A stretch of DNA of 64,000 bases from Tausonia pullulans (taxonomy: Eukaryota > Basidiomycota > Tremellomycetes > Cystofilobasidiales > Mrakiaceae). Of this stretch, positions 7,341 to 47,601 are shown in pieces (position 1 is the stretch's first letter; the number at the start of each line of letters is the position of its first letter). The notes under the pieces are model-generated. The model was not told the DNA's origin, did no database searches, and saw only the letters and a list, made by a program, of their open reading frames with translations. Position numbers and translations under genes: made by a program. The stretch spans positions 1,054,001 through 1,118,000 of the forward strand of contig OX637620.1 of NCBI GenBank assembly GCA_951802195.1. Reading direction: 5' to 3'.

Positions 7341-8172
7341 CTCGCTCGTTCGCAATGGCGCGGTGGGTGCTCATGCCGACCGGCAAACACGCGAGTTCTC
7401 GTAGTGCATGGTCTGGCAACTCGTTTTGGAGCGTGACCGAGCTTGCTAGTGAATGTTCGTTTGCACAAGACCCTCACTCGCAGAAAAGAACACAGGAGAC
7501 GGACGCGGCTCTCATACACGTGGTGCACGACGCACGAGTGACCTTGTTTGACTCGTATGCCACCCTCCCGACCGGACTCAACGACTTTCAGGAAAAAGCA
7601 AGCCAACCTCTGACGGCGACGAGGGTGGAGGCACCTGCGCGCGCTAATCAGGATCATCGCCACAATATTCTAGGCTATGCGCGCGCTGCGTCGCCTCCCT
7701 CTCCCCCAATCCCAGACGCTAACGTCTCCGCTGGGCGCTCTAGCTCGCCGTACATATCTGCCCTTCTTTGGCCTATCAGCTTCCATGCAAGCGCTGGCCA
7801 GATGAATGATCGGTGACCTGTTATCGTTATCTCCTTCCGCGGGTACATTCACCCGCCGACCGACAACCGCTTGCGCGATTAGCGTGGCGTGGCAACTTTT
7901 TTTTATCGGAACGCCTTCAGACGCTAGGCAGTGACCATTTTCAGAGAGGAGGCGGCCAGGAAATTGTCGATGGATTGATAGTCTAGATAGCAAACGCGCG
8001 CCTTTATCTGGGATGCAGCGTAGTGCCATCGGGGCGAACTTCGTAGCGCTGAATACTGCAGGCCTCGGACGGCTGTAGTACATACGTACCATGGCCCACG
8101 CCGCCACGAGCCAGGGCAGCGAAAACGGTGACGCACGCTCTACAACAGCAGATAAAAACAACAAAATATGAT

Positions 8173-8181
8173 AAAATAAAA
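8173..8181 (-). terminator. Pol III-type T runs after the permuted tRNA
   Basis: On the minus strand, T4 at 8181-8178 and T4 at 8176-8173 separated by one A, starting 13 nt after the last tRNA base. Runs of four or more T in the non-template strand are the usual Pol III termination signal in fungi. Confidence 0.6.
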
Positions 8182-8194
8182 TCACTCGGAATTG

Positions 8195-8271
8195 TATGAG
8201 CCCGACACGCTACCATTGCGCCAGCCCGCAGTTAGTTGCGGGCTCCGGTTTCGATCCGGAAACCTTCGGGT
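8195..8271 (-). tRNA. Circularly permuted initiator tRNA-Met (CAT)
   Basis: Read 5'->3' on the minus strand the gene runs 3' half, linker, 5' half. The 3' half is A38 (8271), anticodon-stem 3' strand CCCGA (8270-8266), variable loop AGGTT (8265-8261), T stem TCCGG (8260-8256), T loop ATCGAAA (8255-8249), CCGGA (8248-8244), acceptor 3' strand GCCCGCA (8243-8237) and discriminator A (8236). The linker CTAAC (8235-8231) follows. The 5' half is acceptor TGCGGGC (8230-8224), TG, D arm GCGC-AATGGTA-GCGT (8221-8207), G26, anticodon stem TCGGG (8205-8201), C32 T33, anticodon CAT (8198-8196) and A37 (8195). Pairing is 7/7 acceptor, 5/5 anticodon, 5/5 T stem, 4/4 D stem with one G-U. The break is exactly at 37/38, the standard tRNA-intron position. 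Initiator marks: three G-C pairs at 29-31/39-41, A54 and A60 in the T loop, and a weak 1-72 pair. No 5' half precedes the 3' half, and no T arm follows the 5' half. Confidence 0.9.
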
Positions 8272-9010
8272 GTCGTGAAAGACAAAGTAATCTCTTGAAA
8301 ATATTGTGTCAGAGATGGGTTATATGACCCCTGAAGAAATGTAGTACAGATATTTTTGACATGCAGATGTTCATATCCTGCCAGAGTCCACCCGTTTGTG
8401 TGGGTGCCGTGCCTGAATAGCAAAAGGAGGTTTAGTCGGCCGGACTCGCGGCGCAAAAGGGATGGCCCGGCTAGGGCTCTCGATCTCGAGGTGCAGGGGC
8501 AAACATAGTCCAGTCAAAGAAATGGGGGCGAGCTGGTGATGGAGATGCGTGTACGAGTAATGGTCTGGCAGCATACGGACGCGACAGACTGGCATTGCCG
8601 ATGTCTGGGCCGATTATGCAAAAGTGCAGAGGCCAAAAATCACTCTGCCGTTTGCGGGCAAACTCGCATACCCTGACGTCCCCATACGACGGTGTTCAAA
8701 TTGAAGCGCGTCTGTAGACCGCAGGCGAATATGCGCTTTATTAGCGTCGCAGCGTCGCTCGATGCTGGTCACCTCCCGCTGCCCCTGAGAGAGATAATCA
8801 TACGGCTGTCTGCTTCAGGTATAGCTCCACACGATTTTGTCGCCTGGGCCGTCGGCTCAAGGCTCAAGAATGTTCGAACACAAAGTGTTGTGCTGAGACC
8901 CCGCCGTGTCCTCTCTTTGCTTATTGCTCACTATCAGCAAGGACCAGAAAGCTGAATTGGCCTGTCTCTAACGCTACATGTGAAGAGTACAAATAATGCT
9001 GGATAAAACT
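8272..9010. other. Leader region of the permuted tRNA, and spacer
   Basis: Minus-strand upstream side of the tRNA. A TATA-like CATATA lies at 8326-8321, about 50 nt upstream of the 3' half, inside a GGGT...ACCC inverted repeat. The rest up to the next gene's stop shows no supported gene. Confidence 0.4.
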
Positions 9011-44254: not shown

Positions 44255-47200
44255 ATGGACGACCTGAACGACCTCACCTGGTCGTCCACGCCCGCCTCCG
44301 CCCCACCTCCCCTTGTCGGCCGGCCCTCGTATCTCTCCGCCTCGTCCGCCTCAACAGGCAGTAGCCGCACCGGTTCCCCCGCGGACTTTTCCTCTTTCGA
44401 CAGGCTCTCCAACCAGCTCAACTCGAACCGCTCCTACTCGCCCTCCGTCGCCCCACCGCCGCCGTCGCGACCGGCGGCCGCGCCTGCTCGTCCCAAGGCG
44501 TCGGCTCCCGCCGGCGGATCGATCTCGTCCGACGCGTTTAGCAGCCTGCTCTCGTTTGGGTCCTCCTCCGCCTCCGCGGCCTCGGGGACGCTCTCGCTCG
44601 CAGACAAGCAGCGGGCGCTTGCTGAGGCCGAGAAGAAACGTAAGGAGGAGGAGGCGAAGCGGTTCCAGTCGAACGGAGCGTTCTGGGACCAGCTCGGGGG
44701 TGGGTCGTCGTCGGCCACCTCGGCGTCATCGTCGGCTGGTCTCCAAGGTTCCATCGACTTCCTTCGACCTTCTTCTGGAGGAGGAGGGGGAACTACAGGC
44801 TCGTCTGATCCACCACCGAGAATCTCCTCGCCCGCGCTCGTTCCTTCGCGTCCGGCCCCGTCCAATGGCGCGTCGTCGGCGCCAACAGCCAAGGCGGGAC
44901 CGGTCGCGTCGTCAGCTGCGAGCGACCCTTGGAGCGAGTTTGACGTGTTCGCCTCCTCCAAGCCAGCAGCGACCTTAGCTTCTCAAATGAAGAAGCCAAG
45001 CCCTTCACTCCATGCGGCGGAAGCATCGTCCTCGGGACACTTCGACTTTGACTCGCTCGATGCGTTCACGTCATCCTCCGCGCCGGCGCCGAAGGCGGCC
45101 GCAACCCCTCGCTCGTTCACGCCCCAGTCGCATGAATTTGGAGATCGGGAGGACCTGGACGATGATTGGGGGATGGGCGAGGACGCTGCTGGCCTTTTGG
45201 GTGGAGGAGATGGAGAAGGAGGCGATGGCGTCGCCGCTGTCAACGATGACGACGACGACTTTATGAGCGCATTCAATCGCCCACCGCCACCCAAGCAGGT
45301 CAGTGACGAGCTTTACCCTTTCCTGGAGCTTCATCCTTTCGCTCACCTGCGCTTCTCTCTCCCGGCAGACGGTCTCCCAACCCAAGCCTTCAGTATCCTC
45401 CTCCTCCCGTTCCAGCCCTCCTCTTCCAAACACCAAACGCTCCACCTCTCCCCCACCGCACATCATCGGCCAGCTCGTCGAGATGGGATTTGGACCTTCC
45501 GAAGCTCGCGCCGCCCTCGCTTCGACCGAGACTGGTGTAGACGTCCAGCAAGCGCTCGAGATGCTCATGAGCGCCGCGAACGCCGGTCCGGCCCCCATGG
45601 GGGCGGACGACGACTCCGCCCACGAGGACAATGGTCTCGAGCGAAGGATGCATGCCGCTGCGCTTGAGGAGGAACGAGCGGCCGAGGCAGCGGCGGCGGA
45701 ACGTCGTCGCCGGCGGCGACAGGGCCCGTCGCGGTCCGCTGTTGGTGGCCCGTCGACGCCTCGAGTCGAAGATGAGGATGGCTCGGCGGCGGGGCCAGGT
45801 GAGCTTGCGGCCAATGTCCAGGATTCAGCGGCGAGGCTGCTTGCTCAGGCGAACTTGCTCGGTGGGAACATGTTCAATAGAGCAAACGCGCTCTGGAGCC
45901 AGGGCAAGACCCAGGTCCAGAAGGCGATGGAGGAGCGGCAGCGGGCGGCTGGAGGAGGGGAGCAGCAGCCTGATGACGGACGGCCAAAGTGGATGCGGGA
46001 TGCGGAGCGATACCAACGCGAGGCGGCCTCGGGCGCGTTGGCGAAGGAGCCGCCTGCGTCATCTGGAGGCTTCAGGGATGGGAGCGACGACGAGCAGGAC
46101 GCTCCGCCTCCGAGCCGGCCACCGATGTCTTCGTCAACTTCGAGCCGGTCCCGACCGCCTACGGATCGCCAACAGGCGACGCCGTCTCAGCCGAGTGCGC
46201 CCATACCTGCGCCGCTGCTCTCAGCTAAGGCTAAGATTGCCTCACTTTTCGGTGGCGACGACGAACCGACAAGTTACGTCTCCCCCAATCGCCGGCGCCC
46301 GACCCCGTCCCAGGGCTTGCAACCTGCCACTGCCACTGCTTCCTCCTCTCGTCCACGCACTCCGCTCCAGAGAGCATCCACCTCAGCTGCCGCTCCCGCG
46401 CCTCCCCCCATCCGCAAGCGCGAGCTCCCCCCTGTCTCCCCGACAGCGCTCGCCTCCGTCGCCTCGGACCGCGAGGCCGGCAATGCCCTCTTCAAACTCG
46501 GCCGCTTCGGCGAGGCCGAGCAGCTCTACACCCGCGCCGTTGACGCCCTTCCTCCCACCCACCTCCGTGTCATCCCACTGCTCAACAACCGAGCGACCAC
46601 CCGCCTCAAGAATGGGGATTCCGCCGGGTGCGTCGAGGACTGCGCGCGCATCCTCGTCCTCATTGCGGGCGCCGACTCGGTCGAGGCGCTCAATTCGTAC
46701 GAGCCGGCGTCGGATCCGGCGGAGGCTCTCCCGGCGGATGCGAGGGACCTTGCGCCGCTCGCCGGGGCGCTGGGGAAGGCGCTCGCGAGGAGGGCGGCTG
46801 CGTGGGAGGCCGCGGAGCGGTGGACGAACGCGAGGGACGATTGGGATGCCGTCGGTCGGCTTGCGGGCAAGGGTTCGGTGGCGGTCACGGGCATTGCCCC
46901 TCCGGCGAGGACGGCGGCGCTTGACGGTCTTCGGCGGTGTCGCAAGATGGTCGACCTCATGAGCGGAGGCGGAGGCGAGAAGGCGGCGTCGTTGGCCCCT
47001 GGCGCCCTGGCTTCTTCGTCCGGACAGTCTTCGTCCCCTCGTCCCCCGCCTGCCGCCTCGAAGCCCAAGCCCAAGAAGCCCAAGCCCGCCGCTCCGATCG
47101 TCCAGTCCGGCGAGGCCCTCGCCGCCCTCCGGTCGACGACCTCCGCCCAAGAGGCCGACGACAACCTCCGCGCCGAGCTCAAGGACACCGTCGACGCCCG

Positions 47201-47601
47201 CCTCCTCGCCTGGAAGGGCGGCAAGGAGGCCAACCTTCGGGCGCTCCTCGCCTCGCTCGAGAACGTCCTCTGGCCGTCGCTCCGGTGGGAGAAGGTCGGC
47301 CTCCACGAGCTCGTCACGGACAAGCAGGTCAAGATCCGCTACACGCGCGCCATTGGCAAGGTCCACCCGGACAAGCTCGCCGGTGCATCCGTCGAGGAGC
47401 GCATGATCGCGAACGGCGTCTTTGGGGCGCTCAACGAAGGTGCGATGTAGCGTTGATTTCTGCCCCCCTTGGACCCCCCCTTTGCCCCTTGCCTCCCTTC
47501 CCCTCCGTTCTTTTCCTCCCTTCCCTCTCTGCTCGCTTTTGCTCTCTCGCTGACATCACGCTTGTTTCTCTGCATCCCCAGCCTGGAACGCGTCCCAATA
47601 G
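44255..47601 (+). CDS. SWA2: Auxilin-like J-domain protein (Swa2 type)
   Basis: Clathrin-uncoating cofactor: it brings Hsp70 to clathrin coats. Three exons, 44255-45298, 45369-47439, 47582-47601; 1044 aa. Order: long Ser/Pro/Ala N-terminus (clathrin-binding-type disordered region, about 1-370) with WSEFDVFAS and FDFDSLDAF repeats; a UBA domain at about 380-420 (IIGQLVEMGFGPSEARAAL); another disordered part; TPR repeats at about 710-880 (AGNALFKLGRFGEAEQLYTR); a C-terminal J domain from about 985 with the HPD in IGKVHPDKLAG. UBA-TPR-J is the exact order in yeast Swa2. The last intron splits ALNE|AWNASQ; reading through it would stop after GAM and lose the conserved Trp, so I spliced it. Confidence 0.94.

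Follow-up and report, generated by a model that had tools for sequence, protein, structure and literature searches.

The permuted gene in the window

The DNA analysed here (the window) is a 64 kb stretch of contig C1 (1054001-1118000) in a genome of 23.86 Mb and 21 contigs. Sequence, covariance model and geometric scan agree on a circularly permuted tRNA gene on its minus strand (8195-8271), probably for initiator tRNA-Met(CAT) and with its junction at 37/38 (type II). The 3' half (8236-8271), comprising tRNA positions 38-73 without an encoded CCA, comes first and is followed by a linker CTAAC (8231-8235) that joins the mature 3' and 5' ends; both are delimited by sequence and geometric scan. 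The 5' half (8195-8230) comprises positions 1-37, with the anticodon CAT at 8198-8196 and A37 at 8195; its 29-nt core recurs identically at 14 places in the genome. All pairs of the four stems are possible (21/21), i.e., acceptor 7/7, anticodon 5/5, T 5/5 and D 4/4, the last with one G-U. Rejoined, the halves can form a complete cloverleaf with the anticodon CAT and features of the initiator type, in which T8, A15:T48, G18 G19 and T33 are recognizable among the conserved tRNA residues. A sequence-only reading of this DNA had described the permuted order, and its coordinates (8271-8236 / CTAAC / 8230-8195) prove exact to the base. The stem pairing that it claimed is recovered by the covariance model and the geometric scan, and its placement of the break exactly at 37/38 agrees with the sequence and the scan.

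The permutation inverts the order of the internal promoter boxes. The B box within the T arm (GGATCGAAACC, 8247-8257), which includes A54 and A60 and is recognized from the sequence and the alignment of copies, precedes the A box found by the geometric scan (TGGCGCAATGG, 8213-8223). The leader carries a G at position -3 (8274), a possible anticodon-intron partner of C32 (8200). Further upstream on the same strand lie a TATA-like element, CATATAACC (8318-8326), a putative Pol III promoter 55 nt before position 38, and the motif GGATATGAAC (8369-8378), which resembles an inverse B box and lies 107 nt before position 38. T runs at 8178-8181, 8173-8176, 8163-8166 and 8154-8158 (together 8154-8181, minus strand), 14 to 37 nt downstream of position 37, are putative Pol III terminators.

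The gene was recovered by a covariance model that was trained on eight conventional tRNAs of the same genome (Trp, Arg, Gly, Asn and four Ala). These were found by ARAGORN, include neither Met nor Thr, thus avoiding circularity, and were permuted in silico at 37/38. At E <= 10 the model has a single match in the 64 kb window, 8271-8195, with 52.4 bits, zero non-standard pairs and an E-value of 6.7e-13, which is a rough figure from a short calibration. Likewise, a geometric scan of both strands for 21 pairs, all Watson-Crick or G-U, with a linker of 1-40 and a D loop of 7-10, returned this one place, and none in both strands of 10 mononucleotide shuffles. ARAGORN (bacterial setting) listed no tRNA in the whole window and Rfam listed nothing at gathering score, as is expected because the gene is permuted. 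The Rfam family YrlA (RF02553) matches the gene with 22.8 bits; membership was rejected, as this is far below the gathering cut-off of 69.

Two permuted families in the genome

A DNA search of the 23.86 Mb genome with the mature-order query returned 14 iMet places, and in all of them the part 37-71 precedes the part 1-36 (or up to 40). The query in gene order yields the same 14 places as continuous matches, and a pattern across the 5' half with its identical core likewise matches at 14 places. The permuted model scores these copies at 50.3 to 56.9 bits. Their linkers are 5 to 8 nt long, and variants such as CATAAC, CTTAAC, CTAAAC, CTAAAAC and CTAAACAA suggest that CTAAC, which we take to be a common branch-site word of fungal spliceosomal introns, is not strictly kept.

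A conventional counterpart was sought by means of the joined anticodon loop GGGCTCATAACCC, which has 0 exact matches in the genome. None of its 19 one-mismatch places (9 for a reversed control pattern) is a conventional tRNA-Met upon inspection; one of them is the end of a permuted copy itself, and nine belong to a dispersed repeat. This repeat contains TGGCTCATAACCC and was found at nine places (L081-L086, L089, L094, L095), in which ARAGORN finds no tRNA. The assembled genome therefore seems to be devoid of a conventional iMet gene, for which the evidence is strong but not absolute because genome searches score only the best candidates.

The second family is tRNA-Thr(CGT), for which a mature-order DNA search returned 10 places, all of them permuted at 37/38. 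The copies are located on C4 (493034-493108, 629993-630067, 640810-640884), C9 (1028105-1028179, 1189767-1189841, 1204187-1204261, 1222828-1222902), C11 (310662-310736) and C15 (255761-255835, 389188-389262), and their linkers consist of 3 nt only (TGC, TGG, AAA or CCT). The route to this family was a genome search with the YrlA model, which gave 11 places below threshold, with at most 31 bits listed. Nine of these are permuted tRNA-Thr genes, to which the permuted-tRNA model assigns 54.3 to 55.0 bits; the tenth copy (L114, 51.2 bits) was missed by the YrlA model, and no iMet copy (0/14) is among the places that it listed. YrlA matches below cut-off are common, as 13 of the 14 control genomes have them.

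The scan with the permuted model covered the window, 82 of the 114 loci of this genome and L115, the remaining 32 loci being further fetches of iMet places. Within this scope only iMet and Thr genes exceed 50 bits, and the next score below both families is 34.1, at a tRNA-Trp half. The genome may hold further permuted tRNA families. The Rfam tRNA search of the genome listed the best 63 of 897 candidates. One conventional tRNA-Thr(cgt) was called by ARAGORN in L087 (280-665); this call includes a 294-nt intron, overlaps protein-like sequence and is probably false.

Identity, conservation and expression of the permuted copies

We regard the permuted CAT gene of the window as, with a probability of nearly nine in ten, a working nuclear gene that encodes the cytosolic initiator tRNA-Met in a basidiomycete. 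It is one of 14 copies, which are probably the sole form of the iMet gene in this genome. This reading draws directly on the gene order, the intact stems, the paired changes, the copy number, the failure to detect any conventional copy, the invariance of G(-3) and the genes with Sen and ligase domains. From these features we infer its transcription, each processing step and its function.

The initiator identity is suggested by the T loop ATCGAAA of the window gene (A54, A60). All 14 copies combine the anticodon CAT with A54, A60 and three consecutive G:C pairs at 29-31:39-41, and these are marks of eukaryotic initiators. All 14 copies also have U1:A72 and U20. The initiator of S. pombe likewise has U1:A72. 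The A1:U72 pair and A20 of yeast iMet (PMC10602860) are found in none of the copies, and this departure makes the initiator the best reading of the gene, probably correct, rather than a proven membership. The same differences are what an elongator tRNA-Met or a tRNA-like regulatory RNA might display. Such an alternative could also draw on the weak match to YrlA, an RNA that is tRNA-like in permuted order, and the loci fetched include no elongator Met gene with which the permuted copies could be compared. We nevertheless consider this alternative unlikely: the T loop residues and the G:C pairs below the anticodon loop argue for an initiator, and the YrlA score is far below the cut-off and of a kind that occurs in most control genomes.

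The 24 permuted genes (12 distinct sequences) were aligned by fitting to the covariance model. All 252 pair cells are formed; with the partners displaced by 1-3 columns the share is 27.5-40.1%. The covariation score is 0.681, and 0.065-0.113 after the same displacement. None of 500 shuffles reaches either the 252/252 pairing or this covariation. Two of five measures are not clearly above the shuffles. Pairs changed on both sides number 13 of 21 (shuffle mean 11.3, with 20/500 shuffles as high), and further pair types show no excess (16 against a shuffle mean of 17.1; 480/500). Most pair changes separate iMet from Thr and do not reveal repeated events. Within each family, one compensated pair change is present: the iMet pair 52:62 (8257/8247 in the window) is A-T in 13 copies and has become G-C only in that of the window, and the Thr pair 49:65 is A-T in five copies and G-C in five.

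The flanks outside positions 38-37 diverge, leaving 11 mutually unlike contexts among the 14 iMet copies and 7 among the 10 Thr copies. Only three pairs of iMet flanks are more than 60% alike (L031/L032, L036/L037 and L041/L042). The earlier interpretation of the locus as a permuted tRNA gene is upheld by these 14 related copies, permuted without exception and dispersed over 11 unlike contexts, by the compensatory substitution in the T stem of the window copy and by the existence of a second permuted family. Some copies lie in duplicated segments, with identical (L036/L037, L101/L102) or near-identical flanks (L041/L042, L099/L100). Several gene pairs are inverted and 9 to 19 kb apart (C14:217931/229661, C6:375298/384037, C4:629973/640795, C9:1204172/1222822), with flanks alike or identical, and resemble palindromic segmental duplications.

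Duplication also underlies another explanation, according to which the permuted copies are non-expressed relics of tandem tRNA duplications, with the 3' half of one copy left beside the 5' half of another. Tandem duplication would be the simplest way to such an order, and several copies do reside in the duplicated segments mentioned above. However, the stems are intact in 24/24 copies and each family displays a paired stem change, and, setting aside the L087 call, no conventional iMet or Thr(CGT) gene was detected that could do the work. Likewise, G(-3) and the upstream motif of iMet and the terminators of both families are kept in flanks that have otherwise diverged. We consider the relic explanation very improbable.

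Transcription signals were compared across the copies of both families. The motif YGAAC, which on the opposite strand reads GTTCR... and corresponds to the core of the B box, occurs between -122 and -86 in 14/14 iMet copies. Among the flank-independent contexts it is present in 11/11, against at most 6 in 20,000 shuffles, the interval having been chosen after inspection. A longer form, RR...YGAAC, lies at a similar distance in 13/14 iMet copies and precedes 2 of 38 conventional tRNAs. TATA[AT] is found at -51 to -60 in 9/14 iMet copies, with related AT-rich strings recognized by eye in the rest, and in 7/38 conventional upstream regions. We infer from these elements that the iMet copies would use an external Pol III promoter.

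The upstream regions of the Thr copies follow another pattern. YGAAC is present within -122 to -86 in none of the 10 copies; RR...YGAAC precedes three of the nine copies scanned, at -91 or -92 and just outside the interval of the iMet pattern, and within the last 160 nt one of the nine has a TATA-like element, at -80. The upstream scan of these nine copies thus provided no firm promoter candidate. A-box-like strings occur upstream of the nine scanned copies, some inside hairpins; a leftover upstream A box that would restore the order of the boxes was considered and rejected, as the best scores (6 to 8) fall within the range of shuffled sequence. Downstream, a run of at least four T starts within 30 nt after position 37 in 24/24 copies, at 14-30 nt in iMet and at 1-9 nt in Thr, and the linkers contain no T run.

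Two U6 snRNA genes on the same contig as the window (L096, C1:1926557-1926656, minus; L097, C1:1974943-1975042, plus) have the B-box-like GGTTCGAAC and TATATA upstream, in L097 at -115 and -31, respectively. The pair of elements before the window iMet gene resembles the U6 pair, with a spacing of 54 bases versus 84, which is suggestive, but only suggestive, of a U6-type promoter. A further U6-like sequence (L098, C5:145573-145677) near an intron-bearing tRNA-Lys scores 39.6 bits against a cut-off of 44 and is perhaps a pseudogene.

For maturation of the iMet transcript we propose the following route. RNA polymerase III would produce one linear transcript of leader, 3' half, short linker, 5' half and trailer. 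This precursor could fold into a cloverleaf in which the linker forms an acceptor loop and the two free ends face each other at 37/38, within the anticodon loop. Cleavage by the tRNA splicing endonuclease (Sen) would occur between leader and position 38 and between position 37 and trailer, aided by the pair C32:G(-3), after which a Trl1-type ligase would join 37 to 38 into a circle. RNase P and tRNase Z would then excise the linker, followed by addition of CCA. The same processing route may apply to tRNA-Thr(CGT).

The eukaryotic splicing endonuclease relies on base pairing between the nucleotide at the sixth position ahead of the 5' cut, here C32, and a purine at the third position ahead of the 3' cut (PMC8479045; PMC10539383). 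In the permuted genes the potential partner of C32, G(-3), is present in 14/14 iMet copies although positions -4 to -15 vary, and A38 is present in 24/24 copies (iMet 14/14). In Thr, position -3 is G in 6/10 copies, A in three and T in one, such that the standard pair is absent in four copies, and the trailers before the T run comprise 0 to 8 nt. For both reasons, the Thr cut is harder to explain.

Minimum-energy folds were calculated for four of the 24 precursors, the iMet copies L029 (z -2.62), L030 (-2.23) and L041 (-0.56) and the Thr copy L107 (-0.82). The acceptor, D and anticodon stems form in all three iMet folds and the leader pairs with the trailer, but the T arm is shifted to a different register and the pair C32:G(-3) is missing. 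The fold of L107 lacks the T and anticodon arms as well as the pairing of leader and trailer. None of the four folded precursors shows the expected structure in full.

Domains of the enzymes that the route would employ are encoded in the genome. Two loci match the endonuclease domain; an in-frame TGA in one of them marks either an intron or a break, and the other match is just over the cut-off. A Trl1-type ligase gene is located on C6 (341837-342704). One permuted iMet copy (C6:345176-345252) lies approximately 2.5 kb from this ligase gene, a proximity that may be due to chance.

A functional split tRNA, with two separate transcripts joined in trans and no circular intermediate, is known as a type from archaea (PMC4033280, for the part of it cited) and would fit halves that end exactly at 37/38, a usual joining place, but we regard it as very improbable, since linkers of 3 to 8 nt have no room for a terminator and a promoter and the halves are adjacent in 24/24 copies.

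Host, known permuted genes and significance

The fungal origin of the window, assumed by the sequence-only reading, is supported by its proteins. The best named matches of a SWA2/auxilin-like protein (45303-47450) are those of Mrakia frigida (46%) and Phaffia rhodozyma (45%); a protein from one further assembly is 99% identical. In a tree of 21 proteins (the window protein and 20 of its 49 matches) it branches beside Mrakia and Phaffia with support of 87/86, which is short of the starred level, within basidiomycetes. The organism-named matches of a VPS54-like window protein are Agaricomycotina. As judged from these proteins, the host belongs to the basidiomycetes near Cystofilobasidiales. Contamination by algal DNA is unlikely because the permuted gene and the fungal genes share one 2.18 Mb contig. 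A planctomycete MAG matches a 20-nt iMet probe, but the place shows no tRNA and no permuted fold and was rejected as chance; exact matches to either probe in viral contigs numbered 0.

Permuted tRNA genes as such are known. The cited sections of PMC3978253 list 34 of them from C. merolae, four prasinophytes, one nucleomorph and Thermofilum pendens, and a second nucleomorph with such genes is described in PMC4494063. The list of hosts given in the sequence-only reading agrees with these reviews and gains one addition, the green alga Auxenochlorella, whose nuclear permuted tRNA genes were found after tRNAscan-SE had left an incomplete set (the relevant passages of PMC12633428). Among the matches listed in the open-licence literature, none concerns fungal permuted tRNA genes.

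Permuted genes for the same tRNAs are among those tabulated in PMC3978253, i.e., iMet in Micromonas (37/38), C. merolae (50/51) and T. pendens (59/60), and Thr(CGT) in C. merolae. The iMet(CAT) genes of Micromonas pusilla and Micromonas sp. RCC299 (Maruyama et al. 2010) are among the closest in kind: the same tRNA, the same type II junction at 37/38, intronless and with the linker at the acceptor end as here. By contrast, their linkers are 47 and 12 nt long versus 5-8 nt in the fungus, and one gene is tabulated per Micromonas species versus 14 copies (PMC3978253). Likewise, the type II Thr(CGT) gene of Cyanidioschyzon merolae (Soma et al. 2007) matches the fungal Thr family in isoacceptor and junction, but its linker is 31 nt as opposed to 3 nt and the fungus has 10 copies (PMC3978253). 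According to the same source, most permuted genes of C. merolae have a TATA-like element within 50 bp, which is rare before the fungal Thr copies (1/9). The genes of Auxenochlorella are nuclear as in the present genome, yet their host is a green alga and not a fungus (PMC12633428).

The similarities to the remaining systems are more partial. The permuted iMet and Tyr genes of Thermofilum pendens again include iMet and have very short linkers (7 and 1), but differ by the 59/60 junction, an extra intron, an encoded CCA and the archaeal host (PMC3978253). The permuted genes in the nucleomorphs of Bigelowiella natans and Amorphochlora are for tRNA-Ser instead of Met or Thr and belong to a relict green-algal nucleus (PMC3978253, PMC4494063); in B. 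natans they share the 37/38 junction and 5-nt linkers with the fungal window gene (PMC3978253).

The type of gene is already known, and the surprise is in its host, its copy number and its completeness, as every iMet copy found is permuted. It is possible, at slightly less than even odds, that the permuted genes originated independently in fungi, that the entire supply of iMet and Thr(CGT) came under the splicing endonuclease and ligase, and that iMet moved to an external Pol III promoter made up of the inverse B-box-like motif and TATA. The reason for moving to such a promoter would then be the inverted order of the internal A and B boxes. In yeast, the RNA ligase also splices the stress-response mRNA HAC1. 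If the proposal is true, translation initiation in this fungus would depend on the corresponding ligase.

So far, permuted tRNA genes have been regarded as a curiosity found in algae and a single archaeon. With two multi-copy families in a basidiomycete, of which one encodes a probably essential tRNA, opisthokonts would join the groups that have this arrangement. Many fungi are easily grown and manipulated, which renders testable how Pol III reads inverted boxes, what the splicing endonuclease needs in an open-ended 'intron', how RNase P and tRNase Z handle a 3-nt linker and how permuted genes originate. The two families would also show that permuted genes escape an ordinary tRNA finder, and would suggest a recheck of 'missing' tRNAs in fungal genomes. 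The YrlA model (RF02553) can serve as a detector, albeit a leaky one, for permuted tRNAs whose linkers are short.
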